From: Cupriavidus oxalaticus
GTDB taxonomy: Bacteria > Pseudomonadota > Gammaproteobacteria > Burkholderiales > Burkholderiaceae
DNA length: 64,000 bases
Assembly: GCF_016894385.1 (NCBI RefSeq)
Contig: NZ_CP069811.1
Span: 534,501-598,500, forward strand
Reading direction: 5' to 3'
Below the pieces are notes generated by a model. That model was not told the DNA's origin and did not search any database. It was given only the letters and a program-made list of their open reading frames with translations. The position numbers and the translations under genes were made by a program. This document shows positions 15,776 through 43,712 of the stretch, in pieces (positions within the stretch are counted from its first letter, which is position 1; each line of letters begins with the position of its first letter).

Positions 15776-16405
15776 ATGGTCCGGCGTAGCCGCGACGATG
15801 CTGTTGCCACGCGCGGGCGCATTCTTGCCAGCGCGCAGCAGCTGATGCGCCAGCGCGGCGTGCACTGCGTCACGCTGGAGGATGTGGCCCGCGCCATCGG
15901 CATGACGCGCGGGGCGGTGTATGCCCATTTCCGCTCGCGCGCCGCATTGATGGGGGCGCTGCTGTCCTGTGCCGAAGCGGATCTTGCCGACCGGCTCGCG
16001 CCGCTTGCTGCCCGGCACCACGCCGGCGCGGCCACGGACATGCTGGAGCCCGCGCTTGCCGCATTGCTCGATGACGACGGCATGGCACGCCATGTCAGCC
16101 TGCTGGCGTTCCTGCTGCAGCACAAGTGCGGCACCGCCTGCGAGCTGTGTCCGCTGCGCGCGCGCGTGTTGCGGGGTGCCGATACCTTGCGCAACGCGCT
16201 GGCGGTCCGGATGGCCGAGCCAGCACAGGCCGGCCTGCTGGTCGCGCACCTGTGGGGCTTGCTGAGTGCCCATGCGCTGCAGCTGGCGCCGTCCGGCTTG
16301 TCCGGGTGCGCGGCATCGCTGGCGCGGCTGTATGCCGCGCCGGGTATGCAACGCGGTGCATGGCATGGCGCCGGCGCTCCGGCATTTCCTCGGGATACCC
16401 CCTAG
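15776..16405 (+). CDS. TetR-family transcriptional regulator
   Basis: 209 residues. The N-terminal helix-turn-helix is typical (TRGRILASAQQLM, then VTLEDVARAIGMTRGAVYAHF). The ligand domain is divergent and contains the Cys cluster KCGTACELC around residue 122-130, possibly a metal or redox site. It starts 20 bases after ksi, in the same operon. The target is unknown; the palindrome that starts within its own stop codon (16403-16418) is a candidate operator, although LuxR-type activation fits the geometry better. Confidence 0.88.
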   Translation: MVRRSRDDAVATRGRILASAQQLMRQRGVHCVTLEDVARAIGMTRGAVYAHFRSRAALMGALLSCAEADLADRLAPLAARHHAGAATDMLEPALAALLDDDGMARHVSLLAFLLQHKCGTACELCPLRARVLRGADTLRNALAVRMAEPAQAGLLVAHLWGLLSAHALQLAPSGLSGCAASLARLYAAPGMQRGAWHGAGAPAFPRDTP

Positions 16406-16446
16406 TCTGCTCGGACGAAGAGCCGGCGGCGGGCGCCGCCTACGAT
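16403..16446 (+). promoter_or_regulatory. Promoter with operator in front of the 73-residue gene
   Basis: Operator TAGTCTGCTCGGACGA (16403-16418) is followed after exactly 22 bases by TACGAT (16441-16446), one of the best -10 boxes of the set. The TAG of the operator doubles as the stop codon of the TetR gene. Confidence 0.8.
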
Positions 16447-16485: not shown

Positions 16486-16707
16486 ATGAAGCGGCTCGGA
16501 TTTCGTTGGGCGGCCGGGCTGGCCGCGGTGGGGGGCGGCCTGGCCGCGGCCTGGGTGCTTGCCGGCGGGAATGGGGTCGCCGTGGCGTACGGCGGTCATG
16601 ATGAAGTCCGTGCGGCCGACACGGGTCCGGATGGGTGTGATGCTGCCTGCGTGCGCAGCCGGGGCGCTGCGGCCATGGTGATACTTGGCCAGCGCCCGCC
16701 GCAATGA
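16486..16707 (+). CDS. Small secreted or membrane protein, unknown function
   Basis: 73 residues, starting at an ATG preceded by a strong GGAGGAGA ribosome-binding site. Residues 1-36 form a signal peptide or single transmembrane segment (basic start MKRLGFRW, then an Ala/Gly/Val-rich hydrophobic stretch). The remainder is short and has two Cys residues (DGCDAACVR) that could form a disulfide. It has its own operator/-10 pair, so it probably belongs to the steroid regulon. No family is recognised. Confidence 0.65.
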   Translation: MKRLGFRWAAGLAAVGGGLAAAWVLAGGNGVAVAYGGHDEVRAADTGPDGCDAACVRSRGAAAMVILGQRPPQ

Positions 16708-16737: not shown

Positions 16738-17208
16738 TCAGCGCTGACGCTGCGCGTGCAGCGCTTCAGCGCGCGCCTTGACGTCTCTTGCAACCTGGTC
16801 GAAGCCCTGTTTTACCCAGGCGCCGTGTTCGCGCATGATGGTTTCGGCGTTCAGGCCCAGGAACAGGTCGGTGGTGAAGTAGCGGGTGCGGGCGGGGGCG
16901 ATTGCTTCGATGTACTGGTCGCGGCGGGCGGCGTCCTTGTTTGCGTCCGTGGGACGTTGCTCCCACGACAGCAGGCGTTCCGGTTCCCACGCCACGAGGT
17001 ATTCGTTGACCGGGATGATCTGGCCGGTGCCAGGGATGCGGACTTGCATGTGGACCATGTCGCCAAGCTTCGCTGTTGTTTCCAGGCCGGGGCAGAAGGT
17101 GTTCCATTCCGCGTAGCGGGGGAAGTCGGTCAGGACTTCCCATACCAGGGAGGCGGGGGCTTCGATTTCCACGGTGATCGAGGTGACCAGGTTTTCTGGC
17201 TTGGCCAT
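16738..17208 (-). CDS. SRPBCC (START/Bet v1-like) domain protein
   Basis: 156 residues. The N-terminal strand and following segment VWEVLTDFPRYAEWNTFCPG are typical of the SRPBCC superfamily, whose fold encloses a large hydrophobic ligand cavity; polyketide cyclases and lipid carriers belong here. AAAGGAGA lies before the ATG. It is convergent with the 73-residue gene and has its own operator-like site at 17274-17289. A steroid-binding or cyclase-like role is plausible from fold and context, but nothing in the sequence proves it. Confidence 0.82.
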   Translation of the reverse strand: MAKPENLVTSITVEIEAPASLVWEVLTDFPRYAEWNTFCPGLETTAKLGDMVHMQVRIPGTGQIIPVNEYLVAWEPERLLSWEQRPTDANKDAARRDQYIEAIAPARTRYFTTDLFLGLNAETIMREHGAWVKQGFDQVARDVKARAEALHAQRQR

Positions 17209-17245
17209 GTTGTCGTCTCCTTTCATTTCTTTGTTTGGGAATCCA

Positions 17246-17289
17246 ACACTAGGGCTGGGCTGTGCGGGGCGCATACCCTGAATGGACGA
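17246..17289 (-). promoter_or_regulatory. Promoter of the SRPBCC gene with operator-like site
   Basis: On the minus strand TCGTCCATTCAGGGTA (17274-17289) is followed after 22 bases by TAGTGT (17246-17251). The palindrome is weaker than most, but the spacing is the same. Additional half-sites (TGGACGA at 17298-17304) lie upstream. Confidence 0.55.
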
Positions 17290-17461
17290 GTCTGGGTGGA
17301 CGATGATGATGGTGATTGAACGAGCCCAAAGCTGTGGGTGGCCCCTGCCGCGGGCGGCAACGTAGGAACGCCTGCGGCTGCGCTGCGCGCCGGCAGTATC
17401 TCAGGTCAGGGGCCCTGGCACAGAACGCGTCGCTGCGCTCGCCTGGCGCTATCGCCGGTGT

Positions 17462-17508
17462 GTTTGCTCCCCTCTCCCGCTTGCGGGAGAGGGGGCCGGG
17501 GGAGAGGA
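17462..17508 (+). repeat. Dispersed hairpin repeat, copy a
   Basis: Begins TTTGCTCCCCTCTCCCGC, pairs with GCGGGAGAGGGG and has a GGGG-rich tail. One of nine related copies in the window, all between genes. Confidence 0.9.
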
Positions 17509-17565
17509 CCGGCGCTGCGACGGAGTGCCACGCGCTACCGTATGTAGCGGGTCTTTCCGGGCGCC

Positions 17566-18705
17566 TCACCCCATCCCCACCACACTAGACAACAGCATCT
17601 TCACCAACACCGCCTGCCTGGTCGCCCCGGTCTTGGCAAAGATCCCCCGCAGGTGCGCGCGTACCGTGTTCTTCTTCACGCCGAGCCTGACTGCCGCTTC
17701 ATCCAGCGTCAGCCCATCGACCATCAGCAAGGCCAGCTCGATCTCTGTCGGCGTCAGGTGGAACAGCTTGCGCAGGCTGGCGTGCGTGTTGCGCGGCGAC
17801 CCGGCCGGGTCGCGGATGAATACCGCGACCGCGGGGCGGCGGGCCTTGTCTTCGGTGCGGTAGCTGAGCGGAATGGGCCGCACCAGCACGCTCAGCGGCG
17901 TGGCCGCCGCGGGACGGCTGAGCAGCGTGACTTCGCTGCGCGAGGTGGCCAGTGCGTGGGCCTGCGCAGCGTCTTCGAGGATCTTGCGGAAGCGGCGGTT
18001 TTCCACCGGGCAGTGTGCGTGCAGCGTGCCGTCCGACAGATAGAGACCGTCGCGTGCCTGCAGCAGGCGCCTGGCGACGTCGTTGCTGCGGATGGCCTTG
18101 CCGTGCTCGTCGAGGATGATGGTGCCGACCAGCAGCCGGTCCACGGCTTCCGCGTACAGGGCGCGCTCGGATTGCAGCAGGTCGAGCGCGGCATGCAGGT
18201 CGACCGCGCGCTTCAGGTGCGGCAGCAGGCCTTGCAGCAGTGCCTTCTCGATGGCGCCGAAATCCTGGCCCGCCTCGCCGCGGCTGATGAACAGGGCGCA
18301 TTCCACGCCGTCGGCGGTGACGAGATTGGCGGCGAGGATATAGCGCAGGCGCAGCGGCGCCAGGTACTGGGTATAGAACGGGTGGGCCAGCCATCCGGCT
18401 TCGCCGAACAGTTCATCGGCGCTGAAGAGGCGGTCGGGATGCAGGTCGAGGAAGGGACACAGCGCGTAGTACTGCTCGCTGTACGAGGGCTCGCCCGGCA
18501 GGTGCGGGCCGTAGGCGGAGGCATTGACGATCAGGCCCGGGCGGTCGGTGGCGGGATGGCGCAGCACCAGCGTGACGAACACGGCGTCGAGGCGCTGGCG
18601 CACGGTTTCAAGGAAGCCGGCCCAGGGCACGGCTTCGGTGGGGCCCTGGTAGAGCTGGGCGAGCAGGGCGCTGAGTTCGGCGGCCTGGAGGGGGGCTGAC
18701 GGCAT
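17566..18705 (-). CDS. LuxR-family regulator, TeiR-like (copy 1)
   Basis: 379 residues. The N-terminal 300 residues lack a response-regulator receiver and resemble the sensor region of the Comamonas testosterone-inducible regulator TeiR. The C-terminus is a LuxR helix-turn-helix (LTPTEIELALLMVDGLTLDEAAVRLGV, then KKNTVRAHLRGIFAKTG). It is paralogous to the regulator at 29431-30618 over its whole length (shared YQGP-VPW, PATDR-GL, LPHLKRAVDLH). The start at 18705 was chosen because a longer reading passes through a dispersed hairpin repeat, whose translation gives a spurious Arg/Pro-rich leader. Likely an activator of the steroid genes; it could bind the TAGTCC-type palindromes. Confidence 0.85.
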   Translation of the reverse strand: MPSAPLQAAELSALLAQLYQGPTEAVPWAGFLETVRQRLDAVFVTLVLRHPATDRPGLIVNASAYGPHLPGEPSYSEQYYALCPFLDLHPDRLFSADELFGEAGWLAHPFYTQYLAPLRLRYILAANLVTADGVECALFISRGEAGQDFGAIEKALLQGLLPHLKRAVDLHAALDLLQSERALYAEAVDRLLVGTIILDEHGKAIRSNDVARRLLQARDGLYLSDGTLHAHCPVENRRFRKILEDAAQAHALATSRSEVTLLSRPAAATPLSVLVRPIPLSYRTEDKARRPAVAVFIRDPAGSPRNTHASLRKLFHLTPTEIELALLMVDGLTLDEAAVRLGVKKNTVRAHLRGIFAKTGATRQAVLVKMLLSSVVGMG

Positions 18706-18720
18706 CGTGGCGGTGCGACG

Positions 18721-18767
18721 GTTTGCTCCCCTCTCCCGCTTGCGGGAGAGGGGCCGGGGGTGAGGGC
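18721..18767 (+). repeat. Dispersed hairpin repeat, copy b
   Basis: GTTTGCTCCCCTCTCCCGC with pairing arm GCGGGAGAGGGG and the tail CCGGGGGTGAGGG. Lies just upstream of the LuxR gene start (minus strand). Confidence 0.92.
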
Positions 18768-18810
18768 TGGCGCATGGCAAGCATGACAGCGCCTCACTTC
18801 GTGGAAGCGC

Positions 18811-18854
18811 CGGCCCTCACCCCCACCCCTCTCCCACTACGCGGGAGAGGGGGG
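18811..18854 (-). repeat. Dispersed hairpin repeat, copy c (inverted)
   Basis: Same element in the opposite orientation: CCCTCACCCCCACCCCTCTCC then GCGGGAGAGGGG. Copies b and c face each other in the cysN-LuxR gap. Confidence 0.85.
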
Positions 18855-18957
18855 CGCATGTGTCGGACGGTGGCGAGCATCAATGCTTTCGCATACCGGC
18901 TGTTCGCTCCCGTTTCCATCGTATCGATACCGTTCACCACCTCATCGTCCATTCAGC

Positions 18958-20877
18958 CTAAGGCCTGTCCCGCAGCCACGCCACGACTCGCTCGGCCGCC
19001 TGCTCCGCCGTGTCGGCGGTGGTGTCGATGCGCAACTCGGGCCGGTCGGGCGCCTCGTACGGCGAATCGATGCCGGTGAAGTTCTTCAGCTCGCCGCGCC
19101 GCGCCTTGCGGTACAGGCCCTTGGGATCGCGCTGCTCGGCCACCGCCAGCGGCGTATCGATGAAGACCTCGACGAATTCCCCGTCGCCTGCCAGCGTGCG
19201 CGCCATCTCGCGCTCGGAGCGGAACGGCGAGATGAACGACACCAGCACGATCAGCCCCGCATCGAGCATCAGCCTTGCCACTTCAGCCACGCGCCGGATG
19301 TTCTCGACGCGGTCGGCCTCGGAGAAGCCCAGGTCCTTGTTCAGCCCATGGCGCACGTTGTCGCCGTCGAGCAGATAGGTGTGGTGGCCGAGCGCATGCA
19401 GGCGCTTTTCCACCAGGTTGGCGATGGTGGACTTGCCCGCGCCGGACAGCCCGGTGAACCAGACGATGCGCGGCGACTGGTGCTTGAGCGCGGCGTGGGC
19501 GCGGCGGTCTACGTCGATCGCCTGCCAGTGGACGTTCTGCGCCCGGCGCAGCGCAAAGTGCAGCATGCCGGCGCCGACCGTGTTGTTGGTCAGGCGGTCG
19601 ATGATGATGAAGCCGCCCAGCTCGCGGCTGCGCGCATAGGGGTCGAACGCCACCGGCCGGTCCAGGTGCAGGTTGCACACCCCGATCTCGTTGAGTTCCA
19701 GCGTGCGCGCGGCCAGGTGCTCGAGCGTGTTGACGTTGACCTTGTACTTGGGCTGCGCGACCGTCACGCCCACGGTGCGCGTGCCGAGCTTGAGCAGGTA
19801 GGGGCGGCCGGGCAGCATCGCATCCTCGCTCATCCACACCAGCGTGGCTTCGAACTGGTCGGCTACCGCGGGCGGGTCTTCCGCGCACGCGAGCACGTCG
19901 CCGCGGCTCACGTCGATCTCCTCGGCCAGCGTCAGCGTCACCGCCTGGCCGCGTAGCGCATGCTCGCATTCGCCATTGGCGCCGACGATGGCGGTCACGC
20001 GGCTTTCGCGGCCCGAGGGCAGCGCGCGCACCCGGTCGCCGCGGCGGATTTCGCCGGCGCTGACGGTGCCGGCGAAGCCGCGGAAATCCAGGTTGGGCCG
20101 GTTGACCCACTGCACCGGCAGCCGGAACGACTCGTCCTGCACGGGTGCGCTGTCGATCGGCACGGTTTCCAGGTGCTGCATCAGCGTCGGGCCCTGGTAC
20201 CACGGCGTGTTGGCGCTGGGCGCGGTGATGTTGTCCCCGCGCAGCGCCGACATCGGGATGCAGGTGATATCGGCCAGCCCGATCTGGCGTGCGAATTCGC
20301 GGTACTCGGTTTCGATGCGCGTATAGACCTCGCGCGAATAGTCCACCATGTCGAGCTTGTTGACCGCCAGCACCACGCGGCGGATGCCCAGCGTGGACAC
20401 CAGGTAGCTGTGCCGGCGCGTCTGCGTCTGCACGCCGCGGCGCGCGTCCACCAGCAGGATGGCCAGGTCGGCGGTGGACGCGCCCGTGACCATGTTGCGG
20501 GTGTACTGCTCGTGCCCCGGCGTGTCGGCGACGATGAACTTGCGCTTGTCGGTGGCAAAGAAGCGGTAGGCCACGTCGATGGTGATGCCCTGTTCGCGCT
20601 CGGCGGCCAGGCCGTCCACCAGCAGCGCGAAGTCGAGGCTGTCGCCCTGCGTGCCCATCTTCTTCGAGTCGGCCTCGAGTTGCGCCAGCTGGTCCTCGAA
20701 CAGCATCTTCGACTCATACAGCAGCCGGCCGATCAGCGTGCTTTTGCCGTCGTCGACGCTGCCGCAGGTGATGAAGCGCAGCAGGCCCTTGCTCTGCTGC
20801 GCACGCAGGTAGTGAGCGATGTCGTCATGCGCCGCTTCTGGCACCAGTTCCGGTGCGGTGTCGATCAGGGTTTCCAT
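18958..20877 (-). CDS. cysN: Bifunctional sulfate adenylyltransferase large subunit / APS kinase (CysN-CysC fusion)
   Basis: Makes PAPS from sulfate and ATP together with CysD: the N-terminal GTPase part drives APS formation and the C-terminal kinase adds the 3'-phosphate. 639 residues. G1 loop GSVDDGKST at 39-47, [12 protein letters not shown] and the EF-Tu-like beta barrels are followed by a complete APS kinase with Walker [10 protein letters not shown] at 476-484, [10 protein letters not shown] and the catalytic Ser in FISPFRSER. Fusion to a full kinase implies PAPS, not only APS, is the product. It overlaps the cysD stop (TGATG) and shares the promoter at 21835-21879 with the catabolic genes. 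Confidence 0.95.
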
Positions 20878-21773
20878 CAGAAATATCCCTCCTGCTTCTT
20901 CTTCTCCATCGAACCGGCCGAATCGCTGTCGATCAGCCGTCCCTGGCGCTCCGACGTGGTCGCCAGCAGCATTTCCTGGATGATGCCGCCGAGCGTGTCG
21001 GCCTCGCTCTCGATCGCGCCGGTGAGCGGGTAGCAGCCCAGCGTGCGGAAGCGGACCTTGCGCATCCGCGGCGTTTCGCCGGGGCGCAGCGGCAGGCGCT
21101 CGTCGTCGACCATGATCAGCGTGCCGTCGCGCTCGACTACCGGACGCTCCCTGGCAAAGTAGAGCGGCACGATCGGGATGTCGTTGAGGTAGATGTATTG
21201 CCAGATATCGAGCTCGGTCCAGTTCGACAGCGGAAACACGCGCAGGCTCTCGCCTTTGCGCTTGCGGGTGTTGTACTGGCGCCAGAGTTCGGGGCGCTGC
21301 ATCTTCGGGTCCCAGCGGTGCTGGGCGGTGCGCACCGAGAACACCCGCTCCTTGGCGCGCGACTTTTCCTCGTCGCGGCGCGCGCCGCCGAAAGCGGCGT
21401 CAAAGCCGTAGTGGTCCAGCGCCTGCTTCAGGCCCTGCGTTTTCCATACGTCGGTGTGGACGGCCGAGCCGTGCTCGTGAGGGCTGATATTGCGCTCCAC
21501 CCCTTCGGGGTTGATATGCACGCGCAGGTCCAGGCCGAGCCGGTCGGCGGTCTGGTCGCGGAACGCGATCATCTCGCGGAATTTCCACGTGGTATCGACA
21601 TGCAGCAGCGGGAACGGCGGCCGCGCGGGATGGAAGGCCTTCATCGCAAGGTGCAGCATCACGGCGCTGTCCTTGCCGATGGAATAGAGCATGACGGGGT
21701 TTTCGCATTCCGCCACCACCTCCCGCATGATGTGGATGCTCTCCGCCTCCAGTTGCTCCAGGTGGGTCAACAT
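20877..21773 (-). CDS. cysD: Sulfate adenylyltransferase small subunit
   Basis: ATP-sulfurylase catalytic subunit, forming APS from sulfate and ATP with CysN. 298 residues, family length. The PP-loop [13 protein letters not shown], the HVDTTWKF segment and the conserved C-terminal [12 protein letters not shown] followed by EGYF are present. The start MLTHLEQLE at 21773 agrees with homologues, and longer in-frame readings cover the operator region. No assimilatory sulfite or PAPS reductase genes (cysH, cysI) are adjacent; the divergent neighbour is a sulfotransferase operon instead, which hints that the PAPS is used for sulfo-transfer. Confidence 0.95.
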
Positions 21774-21834
21774 CGGGTTCTCCTCTTGGTTTGCCGGCCC
21801 ATGCACGGATCTCGCGGTGGCCTGGCATGGCCAC

Positions 21835-21879
21835 AAGGTAGCGAGCCGGGGCCCCGCGCCACTTCGTCCGGGCGGACTA
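21835..21879 (-). promoter_or_regulatory. cysD promoter with perfect operator
   Basis: Minus-strand operator TAGTCCGCCCGGACGA (21864-21879) is followed after 23 bases by TACCTT (21835-21840). The 16-mer is identical to the one serving the divergent DUF1214 gene. Confidence 0.85.
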
Positions 21880-21908
21880 GGAAATCGCGGGCCGCGGCAT
21901 GCAATTCC

Positions 21909-21953
21909 TAGTCCGCCCGGACGAGGAAGCGCTGGGCCTGCACTGGGTATCGT
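21909..21953 (+). promoter_or_regulatory. Promoter of DUF1214-sulfotransferase operon with perfect operator
   Basis: Operator TAGTCCGCCCGGACGA (21909-21924), 23-base spacer, then TATCGT (21948-21953). Start codon 32 bases after the -10. The mirror-image pair of sites in this gap indicates joint control of cysDN and the sulfotransferase operon. Confidence 0.85.
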
Positions 21954-21984
21954 TGCTTCGCCGACGAACCACGGGAGCAGGCAG

Positions 21985-23094
21985 ATGGCGACCTCCGCCG
22001 AAGACCAATTGCTGAGCGGCCACACCTGGGCCGAGTTTTGCGAAGTGCTCAAGCGCAGCGGGCAGCAGATCCTGCGCCCCGAAGCGCCGACCGACGCGCT
22101 CACGCGCGCCGAGGGCTTCCGCTACCTGAGCCGCTTGCTGCGCATTGCGCTGGAGATGCATGTGGAGTTCGCCGATCCGGCGTTTCCCGGCTTCTTCTCG
22201 CCGTCGCACGAGACCGCCAAGATCGGCGCGGACAATCCGGACAACCTGTACCGCTACGCGCGCCTGGACGGCAATGCGGCGTACCGCATCCGCGGCCGGC
22301 GCGGCACGGTGGCGTACCTCAGCTTCGGCACGCAGAAGGGTGGCTACGAAACCGATGGACGCATGGTCCAGACCGGCTTTATCGACAGCAGCCAGCTGGC
22401 GGTGGCGGCGGACGGCAGCTTCGAGATCGTCCTCGGCGCTCAGCCGCAGCAGGGCAACTGGGTGCGCATGGAGCCGGCCACCAATGCGCTGGTGGTGCGC
22501 CAGACCTTCCTCGACCGCAAGGCAGAGATCCCGGCCGAACTGCATATCGAACGCGTTGACGGCAACGGCAAGCCGCCCGCGCTGAGCGCCGAGCGCCTGC
22601 ACGGCGGCCTGCTGCGCGCCGCCGGCTTTGTCGAAAGCACCGCGCGCATCTTTGCCGACTGGGCCAGGGGCTACGGTGGCCACGTCAACGCCCTGCCGCC
22701 CGCGGACCAGGCCGTGTGCCAGGCGGCGGGCGGCGATCCCAACATCTTCTACTACCACTCCTGCTGGCAGCTCGCGGATGACGAGGCGCTGGTGGTCGAG
22801 GTCGACCGGGTGCCGGACTGCGAGTTCTGGAACTTCCAGATCAACAACTACTGGATGGAGTCGCTCGACTACCGCTACCACGACATCTGCATCAACAAGC
22901 ACGGCGCCCGGCTCGATGCCGGTGGCGGCGTCACCGTCATCCTCAGTGCGGGCGATCCGGGCCTGTCCAACTGGCTGGAGACCGCCGGCCATCGCAACGG
23001 CACCATGTGCTGGCGCTGGGTGGGCGCGGCGCAGCCGGCGCATCCGCGCACGCGCGTGGTCAAGCTCGCATCGCTCAGGGAGAACAACGCATGA
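21985..23094 (+). CDS. DUF1214 domain protein of the sulfotransferase operon
   Basis: 369 residues, no signal peptide. The C-terminal third carries DUF1214 features ([56 protein letters not shown]). Biochemical role unknown. In actinobacterial cholesterol clusters (from memory, the Rv3529c-Rv3531c region of M. tuberculosis) a protein of similar length accompanies a sulfotransferase-fold protein and an SDR, the same trio as here; that correspondence should be tested by alignment. Its stop overlaps the sulfotransferase start (ATGA), so the two are translationally coupled. Confidence 0.82.
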
Positions 23095-24260
23095 ATGGCA
23101 TCAACGTGAAGGGCCTGCTTGCGCAGGCGAGCGAGCAGGCCGGCGGCCTGGCCGACTTCGGCCCGGGCAACTACCGCGAGGCCCTGGACGTGCTGTCCGA
23201 TTCGCTGGCACGCGAGGCCGGCCTCTCGCAGCAAGGCGAGCAACTGCTGCAAGCCAAGCTGCAGGCCCAGCTGGTGAACCGGCTGGTGATCCAGGACTAC
23301 TGCCGGCGCCATCCGGGGATCCTGCAGGAGCGCGTGGAAGACCCGCTGGTCATCGTCGGGCTGCCGCGCACCGGCACCACGCTGCTGCAGCGCATGCTGG
23401 CTACCGACGCGCGCTTCTGCTCGGCGGCGTGGTGGGAAACCCGCTACCCCGCGCCGCTGCCCGGCGAGGACGTGCGCGATGCCAGCCGGCGCATTGCGCT
23501 GGCGCGCGACGAAGTGGCGCAGATGATCCGCTTCATCCCGGACATCCTCGCCATCCATCCGCTCGACGCCATGGCCGCCGACGAGGAATTCATGCTGATG
23601 GAGCATTCATTCCTGTGCGCAATGGACTCCTACGCCAACGTGCCCGGCTACACCGGCTGGCTGGCGTGCCAGGACCGCACCGAGGTCTACGACTACCTGA
23701 AGACCATACTGCAGTTCCTGCAGTGGCAGAAGCGCCAGCGCGGCGAGGGGACCGCGCAGCGCTGGGTGCTGAAGACCCCGCAGCATTTGCATACGCTGGA
23801 AGTCCTGTTCCGGGTGTTCCCGGGCGCGCAGGTGGTGCTGACCCACCGCGATCCGGTCCAGACCATCCCGTCGATGGCCAGCATGGCGCATACGTTGTGG
23901 AAGATGTACGCCGATGCGCCGGATCCGGTCGCGGTAGGCCGCCAATGGAGCGAACAGATGCGGCGCGGCACCGATCACGCCATGGCCGTGCGCGACGCCA
24001 TGCCCGCCGGCCGCTTCCTCGACGTGCGTTTCGAGGATACGGTGCGCGATCCCTTCGGCGTGGCGCAGGCGGTCTATCGCTTCGCCGGCATGCCGCTGAC
24101 CGAGGCCGCGCGCGCCGGCATGTGGGCATGGATGGAAAGCAATCCGCGCAACCGGCGCGCGGCGCACGCCTATACGCCCGAGCAGTTCGGGCTGAGCCAG
24201 GCACAGCTGGCACGCGATTTCGCCGGCTATCGCGCACGCCATGTGCTGAGCCGCGACTGA
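23091..24260 (+). CDS. PAPS-dependent sulfotransferase (Sulfotransfer_3 type)
   Basis: Predicted to move a sulfo group from PAPS to a hydroxyl or amine acceptor. 389 residues. The 5'-phosphosulfate loop LPRTGTT lies at 91-97 and the 3'-phosphate site HRDPVQTIPS at 252-261, both with the expected Arg/Ser; Lys228 in VLKTPQH is also conserved in the family. It starts within the stop of the DUF1214 gene and is followed by an SDR and a DHH phosphoesterase. With cysD and the CysN-CysC fusion divergent on the same control region, a genuine PAPS-using enzyme is likely. The acceptor, perhaps a hydroxysteroid, is not known. Confidence 0.88.
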   Translation: MNGINVKGLLAQASEQAGGLADFGPGNYREALDVLSDSLAREAGLSQQGEQLLQAKLQAQLVNRLVIQDYCRRHPGILQERVEDPLVIVGLPRTGTTLLQRMLATDARFCSAAWWETRYPAPLPGEDVRDASRRIALARDEVAQMIRFIPDILAIHPLDAMAADEEFMLMEHSFLCAMDSYANVPGYTGWLACQDRTEVYDYLKTILQFLQWQKRQRGEGTAQRWVLKTPQHLHTLEVLFRVFPGAQVVLTHRDPVQTIPSMASMAHTLWKMYADAPDPVAVGRQWSEQMRRGTDHAMAVRDAMPAGRFLDVRFEDTVRDPFGVAQAVYRFAGMPLTEAARAGMWAWMESNPRNRRAAHAYTPEQFGLSQAQLARDFAGYRARHVLSRD

Positions 24261-24289
24261 TACCGAAAACACACCGAGGAGACATCCAC

Positions 24290-25081
24290 ATGCTGCTGAA
24301 AGACAAGATCGTGATCGTATCGGGCATCGGCCCGGGTCTGGGCATCAAGCTGGCGGTAGAGGCCGCGCGCGAGGGCGCCCGCGCCGTTGCCATCGCCGCG
24401 CGCACCGCCGCGAAGCTGGACGAGGCCCAGGCCCGCATCGATGCACTGGGCGCCGACTGTGAAGTGCTGAAGGTGGTGACCGACATCACCGACCGCGCCC
24501 AGTCCCGCCATCTCGCCAGCGAGACCGTGCGCCGCTTCGGCCGCATCGACGCGCTGGTCAACAGCGCCTTCCAGCACGGCAATTTCCCCGAGCCGGTGGA
24601 AGCAGCCGACCTGGACGTCTGGCGCCAGGTGTTCGACACCAATGTCTTCGGCACCATGACGCTGACGCAGGAGGTGGCCGCGCTGATGAAGCCGCAGGGC
24701 GGCGGCGCCATCGTGATGATCAACACCCAGGCCACGCGCAAGCCGATGCCCGGCGAATCGGGCTACGCCGCCTCAAAGGGCGCGCTGGCGGTGGCGGTCA
24801 AGTACCTGGCGCGAGAGCTGGGGCCGCATGGCATCCGCGCCAACAGCATCTTCATGGGCTGGATGTGGGGCGCGCCGGTGCAGGGCTATGTGCGCCACGC
24901 CGCGGCCGAACAGGGGGTCGCCGAGGACGCTATCATCGCACCGGTGGCCGCGCAGATCGCGCTGGGCCGGATGCCGACCGACGACGACTGCGCGCGCGCG
25001 GCGCTGTTCCTGGTGTCGGACTACGCCCGTGCGATCACCGGGGCCTCGCTGGATGCCAACGGTGGCGACTTCATGCCCTGA
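24290..25081 (+). CDS. SDR-family oxidoreductase of the sulfotransferase operon
   Basis: 263 residues. The glycine motif is altered to SGIGPGLGIK and the usual NNAG to NSAF; Tyr/Lys in GYAASKG remain, but the canonical Ser position reads MINTQ, so a Thr may replace it. C-terminal segment ALFLVSDYARAITGASLDANGG is standard. It is 29 bases after the sulfotransferase with a GAGGAGA site before the ATG. The SDR, DUF1214 protein and sulfotransferase seem to act on the same compound. Confidence 0.84.
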   Translation: MLLKDKIVIVSGIGPGLGIKLAVEAAREGARAVAIAARTAAKLDEAQARIDALGADCEVLKVVTDITDRAQSRHLASETVRRFGRIDALVNSAFQHGNFPEPVEAADLDVWRQVFDTNVFGTMTLTQEVAALMKPQGGGAIVMINTQATRKPMPGESGYAASKGALAVAVKYLARELGPHGIRANSIFMGWMWGAPVQGYVRHAAAEQGVAEDAIIAPVAAQIALGRMPTDDDCARAALFLVSDYARAITGASLDANGGDFMP

Positions 25082-25097
25082 TCACCGACCAATTGCC

Positions 25098-26114
25098 ATG
25101 ACACGCTACTTTGCCTTCAACGGCGACGCCGACGGCCTGTGCGCCTTGCAGCAGCTGCGCCTTGCATCTCCTGGCGATGCGACGCTCGTCACCGGCGTCA
25201 AGCGCGATATCCGGCTGCTCGAGCGGATCGACGCCTGCGCCGGCGATACCGTGACGGCGCTGGACATCTCGCTCGAACAGAATCGCGACGGGCTGCTGCG
25301 GCTGCTCGCCGCCGGTGCGCAGGTGGACTACTTTGACCACCACCACGCCGGCGAGCTGCCGTCGCATGCCGGTCTGCGCGCGCATATCGACGAAAGCGCG
25401 GCGGTCTGCACCAGCATCCTGGTCGACCGCCATCTCGACGGGCGCCACCGGCACTGGGCGATCACCGCCGCCTTTGGCGACAACCTCGGCGACGTGGCGC
25501 GCGCAATGGCGGCGCTGGCGCGGCTGGACGCGCGCGAAACCCTGATGCTGGAACGGCTCGGCACCTGCCTGAACTACAACGCGTATGGCGAGTGCGTGGA
25601 AGACCTGCATTGCGATCCCGCCGAGCTGGCGCAGCACATGCTGGCGTTCGCCGACCCGCTGGATTTCGCCGCGCAGTGCGCCACCTACACGCTGCTGTGC
25701 GAGGGCTACGAGGACGACATGGCACAGGCGCGCCGCCTGTCGCCCGTGCATGAAGTCCCCGGCGCGGCGCTGCTGGTGCTGCCGGACGCACCGTGGGCAC
25801 GGCGCGCGATCGGTGTGCTGGCCAACGAGCTGGTGCGCGGGCGTCCCGGCGATGCGATCGGCCTGCTGTCGCCCAAATCCGGCGGCGGCTTTGCGGTCAG
25901 CGTGCGCGTGCCCGCGCACAGCATCACCGGCGCGGCCGACTTCTGCCGCGCCTTCGAGACCGGCGGCGGCCGGCGCCTGGCCGGCGGCATCAACCACCTG
26001 CCCGACGCCGAAGTGGAGCGCTTTACGCGCAGCTTTGCCGACTGCTTCGGCGCGCCGCTCACCCAGGCTGGCCCGGCGGGACAAACTCCGTCACCTCCAG
26101 GTCGAAGCCGGTGA
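25098..26114 (+). CDS. DHH-family phosphoesterase
   Basis: 338 residues, cytoplasmic. Motif I NGDADG (8-13), Asp56 in ALDIS, the DHH motif at 80-83 (Asp80-His-His-His) and the DHHA1-type GGGRRLAGGIN near 289-299 are present, so the two-metal active site looks complete. The superfamily includes NrnA-type enzymes that hydrolyse pAp, the by-product of every PAPS-dependent transfer. Position 16 bases after the sulfotransferase-SDR pair makes pAp removal an attractive inference, but other DHH substrates (short RNA, cyclic dinucleotides) are possible. Its last 56 bases overlap the convergent RibBA-like gene. Confidence 0.8.
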   Translation: MTRYFAFNGDADGLCALQQLRLASPGDATLVTGVKRDIRLLERIDACAGDTVTALDISLEQNRDGLLRLLAAGAQVDYFDHHHAGELPSHAGLRAHIDESAAVCTSILVDRHLDGRHRHWAITAAFGDNLGDVARAMAALARLDARETLMLERLGTCLNYNAYGECVEDLHCDPAELAQHMLAFADPLDFAAQCATYTLLCEGYEDDMAQARRLSPVHEVPGAALLVLPDAPWARRAIGVLANELVRGRPGDAIGLLSPKSGGGFAVSVRVPAHSITGAADFCRAFETGGGRRLAGGINHLPDAEVERFTRSFADCFGAPLTQAGPAGQTPSPPGRSR

Positions 26115-27192
26115 CCGCGCGGTAAGGCACCGGATGGCTGAGCAGGCGCAGCTTGTGCGCGCCCACATCGCGCAGGATCTGCGCCCCCACTCCCAGCGCG
26201 CGCTGCGCGAAGGCCGGCGCCGGCGCGGCGGCAGGCGGCGCCGCCAGCCGCGCCAGCCGCTGCTGCGGTGATTCGCGCTCGTCCAGCAGCACCAGCACAC
26301 CGCAGCCTTCAACGCCGATGCGGGCAAGCGAGCGTTCCAGGTTCCAGGCGGGCTGAGAGGCGGGCTGAGAGGTGGACTGAGCCGGCGTGCCGAAGGCCAG
26401 CACGTCGCGCTGCATTTCCACCGCCTGCACGCGCGTCAGTACCGGCCTGGACGGATCGGGCTCGCCCAGCACCAATGCCAGGTGCAGCGCGTCGGCAGGG
26501 GCGTCGTGGTACGCGTGCACGGTGAAGCGCCCGAACGGCGTATCCAGCCCGGTCGAGCGGGTACGGCGCAGCGCGCCTTCGGTCAGCAGCCGGTGGTGGA
26601 TCAGCCCGCTGATCGAGACCGCGGCTAACCCGTGGCGTTGCGCAAAGGCCAGCAGGCCGGGGCCGCGCAGCAGGTCGCCGTCGTCATCAAGCAGCATCGC
26701 ATAGGCGCCGGCGGCGACACGCCCGGCCAGCCGCGGCAGGTCGGAGCAGGCCTCGGCAAAGCCGGCGCGGCGCAGCACGCCGTCGGCCTGCGCTACCACC
26801 GGAAAGATGTGTCCCGGCTGGACCAGGTCTGCCGGTTGGGCGCGCGCCGCTGCCGCCACGCGCAGCGTCAGCGCCCGGTCCGCCGCGGAAATGCCGGTGC
26901 TGACGCCGGTGGCCGCTTCGATCGACACCGTGTAGCGCTCGCGCTGGCGCTGGCTGGCGGCCATCGGCGGCAACTGCAGCCGGTCGCGGCGCGCCTCGGT
27001 GATGGCCATGCAGACCAGGCCGCGCGCCTCGGCGGCCATGAAGTTGACGTCGGCCTCGGTGGTGCGTTCGGCGGCCACCAGCACGCAGCCGGTGGCCTCG
27101 GTGGTCTCGTCCTCGATCACCACCACGCGCTGGCCAGCGGCCAGTGCGGCAAGCACGTCGGCCATCGGCGGCAAGGCGTTGGCCGTGCTCAT
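26059..27192 (-). CDS. RibBA-like protein with degenerate active sites
   Basis: 377 residues aligning to bifunctional riboflavin enzymes. The DHBP synthase half keeps TGISAADRA and GHIFPV but the catalytic loop, normally DRENEGD-like, reads ETTEATGC: the Arg and Asp are replaced by Thr and Cys. The GTP cyclohydrolase II half is recognisable (TPFGRFTVHAYHD at its start, VGAQILRDVGAHKLRLL near the end) but lacks the zinc-binding Cys motif. So classical riboflavin synthesis activity is doubtful. It overlaps the esterase gene by an ATGA. A flavin-related or regulatory role in a flavoprotein-rich pathway is conceivable; function unknown. Confidence 0.82.
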   Translation of the reverse strand: MSTANALPPMADVLAALAAGQRVVVIEDETTEATGCVLVAAERTTEADVNFMAAEARGLVCMAITEARRDRLQLPPMAASQRQRERYTVSIEAATGVSTGISAADRALTLRVAAAARAQPADLVQPGHIFPVVAQADGVLRRAGFAEACSDLPRLAGRVAAGAYAMLLDDDGDLLRGPGLLAFAQRHGLAAVSISGLIHHRLLTEGALRRTRSTGLDTPFGRFTVHAYHDAPADALHLALVLGEPDPSRPVLTRVQAVEMQRDVLAFGTPAQSTSQPASQPAWNLERSLARIGVEGCGVLVLLDERESPQQRLARLAAPPAAAPAPAFAQRALGVGAQILRDVGAHKLRLLSHPVPYRAVTGFDLEVTEFVPPGQPG

Positions 27193-28142
27193 GCTGCCTC
27201 CTGCCGGCTGCTGCCGAACGCGTGGCGCAGCGCCGCTGCGGCCGCATCCAGTGCGTCGCTGGCGGCATCGATCACGCCCTGCATGCTGATGAAGCCATGG
27301 AACTGCCCCGGCCAGCGGCGCACGGTGGCGCTGTGGCCCGCGCGCTGCAGCGCTTCGCCGTAGCCTTCGCCCTGGTCGCGCAGCGGGTCGTACTCGGCGG
27401 TGATGATGGTGGCCGGTGGCAAGCCATGCAGGTCGCGCTGGCGCAGCGGGCTGGCGCGCACGTCCTCGGCATCGGCGCGATTGGCAAGGTACTGGGCGCG
27501 ATACCAGTCCAGTTCCGCTGCGCTCAGGAAGTAGCCGGTTGCGCATTCGCGGTAGCTGGCGCTGCCGGTCGCGGCATCGGTGCAGTCCAGGTAAGGGTAG
27601 AGCAGCAGCTGGTGCCGCAGGGCGATGCCGCTGCCGCGCAGCTGCTGGCAGGCTACGGCGGCGAGGTTGCCACCGGCGCTGTCGCCCGCCACGGCGATCC
27701 GCGCCGGATCCGCACCCAGTTGCGCCGCATGCGCAGCCGCCCATCGCACCGCCGCTACCGCGTCTTCCGCGGCGGCCGGGAAGCGCGCTTCCGGCGCGAG
27801 CCGGTAGTCGACCGACAGCACCAGCGCGCCGCTGCGGCGCGCCAGGCTGCGGCAAATGTTGTCATGCGAGTCGAGCCCGCACAGCACGAAGCCGCCGCCG
27901 TGGAAATAGACCACCAGCGGCAGCGCGGCGCTGTCGTCCGGCCGGTACAGGCGCGCCCGCAGCGGGCCGGCCGCACCGTCCAGGGTCAGGTCGTGCTGCG
28001 CGGCGATGGTATCGCCGGGCGCGAATCCCGGCATGGCCGCCAGCGCGGCACGGTAGTCGGCGGCGCGCAGCGTGGAGAAGTCGGGGCTGGGCATGGCGGC
28101 CATCGCATCAAGCATGGCGCGGGCCTGGGGGTCGAGCGGCAT
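27189..28142 (-). CDS. Alpha/beta hydrolase, hormone-sensitive-lipase family esterase
   Basis: 317 residues. HGGGF oxyanion motif, nucleophile Ser in GDSAGGN, Asp in the AEYDPLRD segment and His in FHGF give a complete HSL-type triad. Such esterases act on short acyl esters or lactones; a steroid ester or ring lactone would fit the neighbourhood, but substrate cannot be read. It is in the middle of SDR-esterase-RibBA-like genes on the minus strand, 58 bases after the SDR stop. Confidence 0.88.
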   Translation of the reverse strand: MPLDPQARAMLDAMAAMPSPDFSTLRAADYRAALAAMPGFAPGDTIAAQHDLTLDGAAGPLRARLYRPDDSAALPLVVYFHGGGFVLCGLDSHDNICRSLARRSGALVLSVDYRLAPEARFPAAAEDAVAAVRWAAAHAAQLGADPARIAVAGDSAGGNLAAVACQQLRGSGIALRHQLLLYPYLDCTDAATGSASYRECATGYFLSAAELDWYRAQYLANRADAEDVRASPLRQRDLHGLPPATIITAEYDPLRDQGEGYGEALQRAGHSATVRRWPGQFHGFISMQGVIDAASDALDAAAAALRHAFGSSRQEAA

Positions 28143-29010: not shown

Positions 29011-29430
29011 GGTCGTGGTTCTCCGTGAAAGAAATCGGGAATGACGGGCAGCGCGGATCGCCGCCCATGGCTGACTTGTAGCGGCGGCGCGGCGGCGCGG
29101 CATCGTCTGTTTGGGTAGGGCAGCGCCACATGGCGCCATATGGCATCTAGGGGTTTGCCCGCGCCGCGCCGGCCATGGGTCTGTCCTTAGTCTGTTTGGA
29201 GTATGTGTTCGCGCCGCCGGCGCGTGAGGATTGGCCTGTCCCTCGGGACTAGTCCGGCATGCGTGCCATGCCGGCGTGGACTAGGGCAAACCATGAAGGC
29301 AGGGGGCAAGCCGCGAGCCCTGCGCCGTCCCTATAATCGGGGCACAAAAAAGGGCCACAGAGCCCGCACAGGAAGGCCAGCCGACCGGCACGTCCGGTGC
29401 GCTGCGCACGCCACAATGGAGACAGAGGAA
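29011..29430. other. Divergent intergenic region (420 bp) between SDR and TeiR-like gene
   Basis: No convincing gene. It contains the operator/promoter of the minus-strand SDR (29075-29118), a weaker operator-like palindrome TAGTCTGTTTGGAGTA at 29188-29203, a symmetric GGGACTAGTCC at 29245-29255, and another CTAG-centred half-site GGACTAG near 29278-29284. These clustered half-sites suggest the regulator controls its own gene. Confidence 0.6.
29075..29118 (-). promoter_or_regulatory. Promoter of SDR-esterase-RibBA-like operon
   Basis: Minus-strand site CTACCCAAACAGACGA (29103-29118) followed after 22 bases by TACAAG (29075-29080). The right half-site AGACGA is good, the left half poor. Confidence 0.55.
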
Positions 29431-30618
29431 ATGCTGATGGAGGCGAGCCACAACCAGGCAGCCGCGCACCTGTTCGCGCAGACGACGGTGTCGCTGTCTG
29501 ACTTCAGCGCGTTGCTGGGCAATATCTACCAGGGACCGATGGAGCAGGTGCCGTGGGGCAAGGCGCTGGAGCAGATCCGCAGGCAGCTCGACGCCAACTA
29601 CGTCACGCTGATCCTGCGCTCGCCCGCCACGGACCGGCGCGGGCTCATGATCAATGCCTCGGAGCACGGTGGCTCGACGCTGCCGGGCGAGACCTCCTAC
29701 AACAACTACTACTACGCGCTCGATCCCTTTATCGGCCTGCCGTCGGACCGCGTGGTGACCATCGACGAGCACCTGGGGCCGGGCGTCTGGTGCCAGAGCG
29801 AGATCTACCTGCAGTTCCTCAAGGACATCGGCATCCGCTATATCCTGGGCGCGGACCTGCGTACCGACGACGGCGTGGAATGCCGCTTCCGTGTCTGCCG
29901 CAAGCATGAGGGCCGCGATTTCTCGGCCGCGGACAAGGCGCTGTGCACCGCGCTGCTGCCGCACCTGAAGCGCGCGGTGGACCTGCATTCGCGCCTCGAC
30001 GTGGTGGAGTCGGAACGCACCGTCTATGCCAGTGCCATCGACCGCATGCTGGTCGGCATGGTGATCCTGGACGAGACCGGCGCCATCATCAAGACCAACG
30101 CCGCGGCCGACGAGATCCTGGGCGCCAAGGACGGCATCCGCATTGCCAAGGGCGGACTGGACGTGGAGTACGGCCAGGAGAACCGCAAGTTCCAGCGGTC
30201 GCTGCGCCAGGCGATGATGGGGCACTTGGGCACCGCGCCGGCGGTGATGGAGGCGATGTCGATCACGCGTCCGTCCGGCAGCGCCAGGCTGGGCGTGCTG
30301 ATCCGCACCATTCCGCTCAGCGAGTGGTCGGAGGACAACCGCAAGCGCCCGGCCTGCGTGGTCTTTATCCGCGATCCGGAGCGGCGCTCGCAGGCCTCGC
30401 ACGATGTGGTGCGCCAGCTGTTCGACTTCACGCCGGCGGAGACGCAGCTTGCACTGCAGCTTGCCAACGGCCTCACGCTCGACGAAGCCGCCGACGAACT
30501 CGGCATCAGCAAGAACACGGCACGCGCGCACCTGCGCGCGATCTTCTCCAAGACCGGCGTGACCCGGCAGGCCACGCTGGTGCGCATGCTGCTGAGCAGC
30601 GTGATTTCGCTGGGCTAA
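29431..30618 (+). CDS. LuxR-family regulator, TeiR-like (copy 2)
   Basis: 395 residues from the ATG at 29431, the same size class as TeiR, which controls steroid degradation in Comamonas testosteroni. Long N-terminal sensor region without receiver domain; C-terminal helix-turn-helix FTPAETQLALQLANGLTLDEA followed by SKNTARAHLRAIFSKTG. Clear paralogue of the 17566-18705 regulator. GGAG lies nine bases before the chosen ATG; an ATG at 29416 would add five residues. Clustered CTAG-type half-sites upstream suggest autoregulation. Best candidate, with its paralogue, for the factor recognising the TAGTCC palindromes. Confidence 0.87.
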   Translation: MLMEASHNQAAAHLFAQTTVSLSDFSALLGNIYQGPMEQVPWGKALEQIRRQLDANYVTLILRSPATDRRGLMINASEHGGSTLPGETSYNNYYYALDPFIGLPSDRVVTIDEHLGPGVWCQSEIYLQFLKDIGIRYILGADLRTDDGVECRFRVCRKHEGRDFSAADKALCTALLPHLKRAVDLHSRLDVVESERTVYASAIDRMLVGMVILDETGAIIKTNAAADEILGAKDGIRIAKGGLDVEYGQENRKFQRSLRQAMMGHLGTAPAVMEAMSITRPSGSARLGVLIRTIPLSEWSEDNRKRPACVVFIRDPERRSQASHDVVRQLFDFTPAETQLALQLANGLTLDEAADELGISKNTARAHLRAIFSKTGVTRQATLVRMLLSSVISLG

Positions 30619-42738: not shown

Positions 42739-42782
42739 TAGTCCGCCAGGACGATGCGTCGCCGGACTGCAAGCGAAAGAAT
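42739..42782 (+). promoter_or_regulatory. hsaC long-operon promoter with operator
   Basis: Operator TAGTCCGCCAGGACGA (42739-42754) and, after 22 bases, AAGAAT (42777-42782). It probably drives the colinear run of genes from hsaC to the OYE-like gene. Confidence 0.75.
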
Positions 42783-42815: not shown

Positions 42816-43712
42816 ATGTTGGATATCCGTGCACTTGGCTACATCGTGGTCGAGTCCACCGACCTGGGGCAATGGCGGCACTATGCGGAGCAGGTGCTTG
42901 GCATGACTTGCTCCGGCGCCCCCGGCGGCGCGCTGTACGTGAAGATGGATGAGCGCGACTACCGCTACCTGGTGGTGCCGGGTGCGCGCGACCGCTACTT
43001 CGCATCGGGATGGGAACTGGCCGACGAGCTGGCCTATCGCCACGCGCTCGACACGCTGCGGCAGGCCAACGTGGAAGTGGTGCATGCCAGCGCCGACGAA
43101 CTGGCCCAGCGCCGCGTGCAGGCGATGGCCTGGTTTGCCGATCCGTCGGGCAACCGCCACGAGATTTCGTGGGGCATGCGCTCGGACTTCCTGCGCTTCG
43201 TCTCGCCGGTCGGCGTGCCGCGCTTCATCACCGATCCGATGGGCGCCGGCCACACCGTGCTGCCCGCGCCGGCCTTCGACCGGACCTACGCCTTCCTGCG
43301 CGACGTGATGGGCTTCGGCCTGTCCGACATCTACCGCGTGCGCTTCACCAGCGATCCCAATGAGCCGGAGAAGCGCATCCACTTCCTGCACTGCGCCAAC
43401 GGCCGCCACCACAGCCTGGCGATCTTCGAGATGCCGTCCGAGGCCGGCTGCATCCACGTGATGGCCGAAGTGCCTGACATGGCCGAGGTGGGGCGCGCGC
43501 TCGACCGCGTGCAGCAGCACGGCGTGAAGCTGTCCGCCACGCTGGGCCAGCACTGCAACGACCGCATGACCTCCTTCTACATGAAGACCCCCGGCGGCTT
43601 CGACCTCGAATACGGACACGGCGGACTGGTGGTGGACTGGGGCCACCACGCCGCCTACGAAGCCACGCGCGTCAGCCTGTGGGGACACGACTTCAGCATC
43701 GGATACCGCTAA
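42816..43712 (+). CDS. hsaC: 3,4-DHSA extradiol dioxygenase (HsaC/TesB)
   Basis: Iron(II)-dependent ring-cleaving enzyme that opens the catechol 3,4-DHSA, product of HsaAB. 298 residues, two VOC modules; likely metal ligands His146 (GHTVLP), His199 (RHHSLAIFE) and Glu265 (DLEYGHGG), the pattern of type I extradiol dioxygenases such as BphC. The start at 42816 is preceded by GGAGA and lies 62 bases from the operator. First gene of the long operon. Confidence 0.93.
   Translation: MLDIRALGYIVVESTDLGQWRHYAEQVLGMTCSGAPGGALYVKMDERDYRYLVVPGARDRYFASGWELADELAYRHALDTLRQANVEVVHASADELAQRRVQAMAWFADPSGNRHEISWGMRSDFLRFVSPVGVPRFITDPMGAGHTVLPAPAFDRTYAFLRDVMGFGLSDIYRVRFTSDPNEPEKRIHFLHCANGRHHSLAIFEMPSEAGCIHVMAEVPDMAEVGRALDRVQQHGVKLSATLGQHCNDRMTSFYMKTPGGFDLEYGHGGLVVDWGHHAAYEATRVSLWGHDFSIGYR

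Follow-up and report, generated by a model that had tools for sequence, protein, structure and literature searches.

A conserved gene module with a probable role in PAPS synthesis and sulfo transfer, linked to steroid degradation in Cupriavidus oxalaticus and other bacteria

The window analyzed here, a whole 64 kb stretch of the 6.69 Mb genome of Cupriavidus oxalaticus in which all positions below are counted, contains a divergent gene cluster that combines enzymes for the synthesis of 3'-phosphoadenosine 5'-phosphosulfate (PAPS) with a sulfotransferase (ST) and a predicted phosphatase for the by-product 3'-phosphoadenosine 5'-phosphate (PAP). The genes for a DUF1214 protein, ST, an SDR and a DHH protein are consecutive on the plus strand and diverge from cysD-cysNC; the same unit also takes in a LuxR-type regulator, an SRPBCC protein and an operator at 16403. 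This module is real, conserved and linked to steroid degradation, and is a variant of the known combination of PAPS genes with a sulfotransferase. The gene order and divergence described in an earlier reading of the sequence alone (the sequence-only reading) held for all the genes when the families were checked with Pfam and NCBIfam profiles. APS below denotes adenosine 5'-phosphosulfate. The components are:

18958..20877, minus strand: cysNC, large subunit of ATP sulfurylase in fusion with APS kinase; NF004035 at 1089.2 bits (cut-off 715), PF01583 APS kinase domain at 232.1 bits
20877..21773, minus strand: cysD, ATP sulfurylase small subunit; passes NF009214 and TIGR02039
21985..23094, plus strand: DUF1214 protein; close relative with a solved structure, 6ANS
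23091..24260, plus strand: ST; PF13469 at 143.9 bits (cut-off 27)
24290..25081, plus strand: SDR oxidoreductase of the NF005909 subfamily
25098..26114, plus strand: DHH-DHHA1 phosphoesterase, predicted PAP phosphatase; recognized by DHH/DHHA1 residues and modelled fold
16738..17208, minus strand: SRPBCC (Polyketide_cyc2) protein
17566..18705, minus strand: LuxR-type regulator with a GerE domain

The minus-strand genes cysNC and cysD overlap by one base, and the ST start overlaps the DUF1214 stop (23091 versus 23094). Given that CysNC passes the bifunctional model over its full length and contains a full APS kinase domain, together with CysD it should yield PAPS, in agreement with what the sequence-only reading had proposed for the CysN-CysC fusion. 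The ST is the only protein in the genome that matches either of the sulfotransferase families searched (PF13469 and PF00685). Its PRTGTT loop, R253 and S261, which we take to have PAPS-binding roles, are invariant in all 29 aligned ortholog rows; among the relatives of ST are two of known structure, 2ZQ5 and 2Z6V, both presumably mycobacterial. The 6ANS record, the relative of the DUF1214 protein, is labelled only as uncharacterized, with the molecule unnamed.

A scan with one genome per species yielded 279 ST relatives. Only the 80 top-ranking ones were retained, so that the locus counts hold for close relatives and ST is present in all 80 loci by construction; partner genes were mapped by tblastn. 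DUF1214 is encoded in 80 of the 80 loci, CysNC, CysD and SDR in 78 each, a relative of the SRPBCC protein in 70 and a LuxR gene in 62. The hosts include Cupriavidus, Ralstonia, Burkholderia, Paraburkholderia and Pandoraea, as well as Collimonas, Pseudomonas, Halopseudomonas, Comamonas and Aromatoleum. The DHH gene is found in 63 loci versus CysQ in 15, which belong to a sister clade, and the two never share a locus; repeated independent swaps between them are unsupported, the tree (computed without locus L117) having a single split. DHH is also present in more distant modules of two genomes, G440 and G516.

The cysD genes of the CysQ-type loci have a peculiarity of their own. In 15 of these 15 loci, including that of Comamonas testosteroni ATCC 11996 (L103:4922-6841), a strain that itself carries the module, the cysD reading frame stays open for another 232-383 codons upstream; among the remaining 63 cysD-bearing loci, the upstream open frame spans 0-66 codons in 62 and 436 in one. 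The extension is conserved among the CysQ-type loci (50-93% identical to L103) and, in L103 and L112, produces weak, below-cut-off matches to HTH_29, HTH_33 and DDE_3, as if a domesticated transposase, IS630-like by our assumption, had been fused to ATP sulfurylase. In the Aromatoleum anaerobium locus, a TauE/SafE sulfite exporter gene (L112:7467-8207) is located between cysNC and DUF1214.

CysD and CysN belong by family to the enzymes of sulfate assimilation, and the simplest alternative is that cysD-cysNC is an ordinary assimilation route with ST as an unrelated neighbor. However, a second cysD-cysN pair adjoins cysH on another contig, C2, of the same genome. The CysN of this pair matches only the initial portion of the model for the fusion, and no APS kinase was found in the genome outside the module, whose copy is thus the sole one. 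In the C2 CysH, the CC...CxxC cysteines are present; the protein scores above the threshold of TIGR02055 for APS reductase (271.1, cut-off 235.3) and below that of TIGR02057 for PAPS reductase (134.5, cut-off 254.2); in favor of assimilation, it also passes the generic PAPS reductase model NF002537, named phosphoadenylyl-sulfate reductase. The genome has three PF01507 matches, namely the window cysD and the cysD and cysH on C2, and no reductase gene was detected among the ten neighboring genes typed, from 16738 to 28142, which bears out the absence of an adjacent assimilatory reductase remarked on in the sequence-only reading. The check for a second, housekeeping cysDN that it proposed likewise left its interpretation standing. 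Because a separate cysH-cysD-cysN locus exists, assimilation does not depend on PAPS from the module, which almost certainly does not serve it; with CysNC also located within about 10 kb of ST in 78 of the 80 loci, we reject the assimilation role, which is largely contradicted already and highly improbable. The DHH protein has no Pfam or NCBIfam match, and a sequence search for solved relatives gave nothing significant. Nevertheless, motifs I-IV and VI-VII of the DHH family are present (D10, D12, D56, D80-H81-H82, D128, R270, G289-G291 and R292), these residues are invariant in 36 of 36 aligned rows, and by-eye comparison matches them to those of the archaeal PyapApase (PMC8268124). The predicted model has a DHH/DHHA1 fold, with the PAP phosphatase 8A8K as the top match over nearly the full length, tied with RecJ. 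Structures of NrnA and a c-di-AMP phosphodiesterase match the model too, and the protein family extends far beyond the module, as would be expected if this were a nanoRNase or a phosphodiesterase of cyclic dinucleotides located in the operon by chance, with PAP cleared by other enzymes. This alternative appears unlikely to us given that CysQ occupies the place of DHH in the sister clade, that the only PF00459 protein of the genome scores well under the CysQ cut-off (107.9 versus 228.8) and that 8A8K, level with RecJ, ranks at the top. Taking together the replacement by CysQ, the matching residues and the model ranking, the DHH protein is probably a PAP phosphatase.

The steroid marker in the window is located some distance from the module:

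42816..43712, plus strand: TesB/HsaC-type extradiol dioxygenase; best NCBIfam match HsaC at 299.4 bits (cut-off 450)

The best solved relative of this dioxygenase is 2ZI8/2ZYQ, which we take to be HsaC; the label reflects the best match to HsaC (under the cut-off), the match to 2ZI8 and the neighboring genes. In a co-occurrence survey of 398 genomes of the family (E 1e-90; counts uncorrected for kinship), the dioxygenase was detected in 80 genomes, ST in 59 and both in 58, and the sole ST genome lacking the dioxygenase, G724, is 86% complete. APS kinase was ruled out as a marker of ST genomes alone, being present in 204 of the 398. A second sample consisted of 50 module loci chosen from the 80, for which 48 genomes were examined; a dioxygenase relative with at least 58% identity over nearly the whole length is encoded in 47 of the 48, the exception being L053, where the relative is only 36% identical. 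Furthermore, a KshA-like gene lies within about 10 kb of ST in 9 of the 80 loci, in Pseudomonas and others (in L068, its identity was confirmed by KshA_C), and in G440 and G516 the module is located inside the dioxygenase cluster.

The two directions of the module are preceded by mirror-image identical operators, which the sequence-only reading had noticed and which are indeed exact. The operators fall into two classes that differ in the bases following GACGA, and the window encodes a second LuxR-type regulator:

16403..16418, plus strand: operator, class A (then AG)
18945..18960, minus strand: operator, class B (then TG), preceding the LuxR gene; departs from the pattern at one base
21864..21879, minus strand: operator, class A, towards cysD; exact TAGTCCGCCCGGACGA
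21909..21924, plus strand: operator, class A, towards DUF1214-ST; exact TAGTCCGCCCGGACGA
42739..42754, plus strand: operator, class B, preceding the dioxygenase gene
29428..30618, plus strand: second LuxR-type regulator with a GerE domain, candidate master regulator

Allowing up to 3 mismatches to TAGTCCGCCCGGACGA, the window contains 5 sites versus 0.68 expected from shuffles. With up to 2 mismatches, there are 7 sites in the genome, 4 of these inside the window; because the reversed control yields 39 genome-wide, it is the clustering in the window, not the genome-wide number, that is unusual. Across the 80 loci, the pattern TAGTCYNNNNRGACGA with at most 1 mismatch occurs at 304 sites versus 48 for the reversed pattern. 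These sites precede DUF1214 in 63 of the 80 loci (with AG or GG next at 62 of 66 sites), cysD in 62 of 78 (AG or GG at 62 of 62) and the LuxR gene in 24 of 62, where the next base is T in all cases; on the SRPBCC side, the sites are mixed, 27 being followed by AG or GG and 18 by TT. In the window, a purine follows at the module pair 21864 and 21909 and at 16403, and T follows at 18945, 42739, 13589, 17288, 31052, 32444 and 62653. Class A sites are present in 61 of the 62 loci with a LuxR gene, in 2 loci with no LuxR gene in view and in 0 of the 15 CysQ-type loci. The LuxR paralogs encoded in the window share 51% identity, and the one at 29428-30618 is, as we assume, TeiR-like. The combination of two LuxR paralogs with two operator classes suggests a regulatory cascade. 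We infer that LuxR 29428-30618 acts on class B sites, one of which lies before the gene of LuxR 17566-18705, and that the product of the latter gene recognizes the module's class A sites; the module would then be induced together with steroid catabolism via this two-tier cascade. The operator type common to the module and the dioxygenase gene, along with the co-occurrence in 58 of 59 ST genomes, agrees with the placement of the module in the steroid regulon by the sequence-only reading.

Our preferred interpretation, to which we assign a probability of roughly 0.7, is a dedicated module for PAPS synthesis, sulfonation and PAP recycling that is induced with steroid catabolism and most likely acts on a steroid-type acceptor. 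CysD and CysNC would convert ATP and sulfate to PAPS. ST would use this PAPS to sulfonate a hydroxyl on a small molecule, most likely a steroid or an intermediate derived from one, which the SDR, DUF1214 and SRPBCC partners would help to shape. The by-product PAP, which is inhibitory, would be hydrolyzed to AMP by the DHH protein. The firmer part of this interpretation is the closed cycle in which PAPS is made, its sulfo group is transferred and PAP is removed, the last step being a predicted one. Of the earlier proposal that PAPS is made for sulfonation during steroid growth, the dedicated PAPS module and the steroid link stood, and a steroid as the acceptor is still presumed. The sulfonated product may be terminal, may serve as a soluble or signalling form, or may be an intermediate activated for elimination. 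Bile acids are an unlikely source of the acceptor because growth on testosterone but not on cholate is reported for Cupriavidus necator and Pseudomonas resinovorans (PMC4810484).

Several observations weigh against a steroid-centered function. In the survey, 22 of the 80 dioxygenase genomes have no ST match. Among the 6 of these 22 whose stretches were inspected, G625 and G489 have the steroid cluster and lack the module, G635 has a contig break at ST (cysD ends one contig, and SDR and DHH start another), and the contigs of G553, G699 and G733 are too short to judge the presence or absence of the module. Given such dioxygenase genomes without the module, it is an accessory of the steroid pathway, dispensable for the core pathway. 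Moreover, in Burkholderia loci, none of the KshA, second LuxR and acyl-CoA ligase markers mapped within about 10 kb, and in some Burkholderia-type genomes (2-4 contigs), ST and the dioxygenase reside on different contigs, such as C1 and C2 of G285. These facts would fit a module that serves another substrate, be it a terpenoid, phenol, lipid or constituent of the envelope, and has only its niche and regulator family in common with steroid degradation. We nevertheless find this alternative doubtful: the dioxygenase accompanies ST in all but one of the ST genomes, the module is surrounded by steroid genes in several different arrangements (in this window, beside the KshA-like genes, and in G440 and G516), and it has its operator type in common with the dioxygenase gene. 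The separation on different contigs itself implies that mere neighborhood does not explain the link between ST and steroid degradation. More tentatively, and with the odds against it, the steroid-linked sulfonation module might represent an unrecognized side branch via sulfonated steroid intermediates in aerobic steroid-degrading Beta- and Gammaproteobacteria, with its own PAPS synthase and DHH-type PAP phosphatase, in which the sulfo group would either activate the intermediate or depart from it, SnoaL, SRPBCC and SDR proteins completing the elimination, or act as a solubilizing or signalling tag.

In the current view, bacteria degrade steroids by oxidation, ring cleavage and CoA chemistry. 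If true, a sulfonation module that is conserved and regulated with steroid catabolism would add a new chemical step or metabolite class to this view, and it would bear on the sulfated steroids that bacteria produce in soil and water. The proposed regulatory code, the base after GACGA, is testable with the two paralogous LuxR proteins. The DHH family protein, which several database records name an acetyltransferase, becomes a candidate bacterial PAP phosphatase.

The closest known arrangement is the Bacteroides cluster BT_0411 to BT_0416, where putative PAPS-making genes lie beside a sterol sulfotransferase, and Bt_0412 and Bt_0416 respond to cholesterol (PMC9417993). PAPS genes are linked to ST in both systems, CysNC and likewise CysD being present in 78 of the 80 loci here; unlike the Bacteroides cluster, the present module occurs in genomes with aerobic steroid degradation, has LuxR-type operators, is accompanied by SDR, SRPBCC and DUF1214 proteins as well as a candidate PAP phosphatase of its own, and is tied to steroids through the genes of its host genomes. 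The archaeal DHH PAP phosphatases (MtPAPP, 8A8K, PMC10322725; PyapApase, PMC8268124) resemble the module protein in fold, metal and substrate residues and in adjoining PAPS-making genes; the module protein differs in being bacterial, in a motif VII ending in GGGR and in lying beside ST, and its activity is predicted. LuxR-type regulators beside 9,10-seco pathway genes recall TeiR/TesR of testosterone catabolism in C. testosteroni (PMC6678751); unlike the window, the module of C. testosteroni ATCC 11996 has CysQ, no nearby LuxR gene and no class A site. The word sulfotransferase was not found in the steroid papers PMC4810484, PMC13101464, PMC8399759, PMC10637631, PMC6678751 and PMC5380842, and PMC11597791 names it once, in a sentence on SDR enzymes; no description of the module was found in the literature searched, subscription papers lying outside its scope.

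Two further reading frames flank the module. A RibBA-like protein (DHBP synthase and GTP cyclohydrolase II) is encoded at 26059-27192, convergent to the DHH gene; it scores under the equivalog cut-offs and is retained in Cupriavidus loci. On the other side, 67 bases past the operator at 16403, lies a candidate gene without a Pfam match:

16486..16707, plus strand: possible small protein of 73 aa with a signal-peptide-like start
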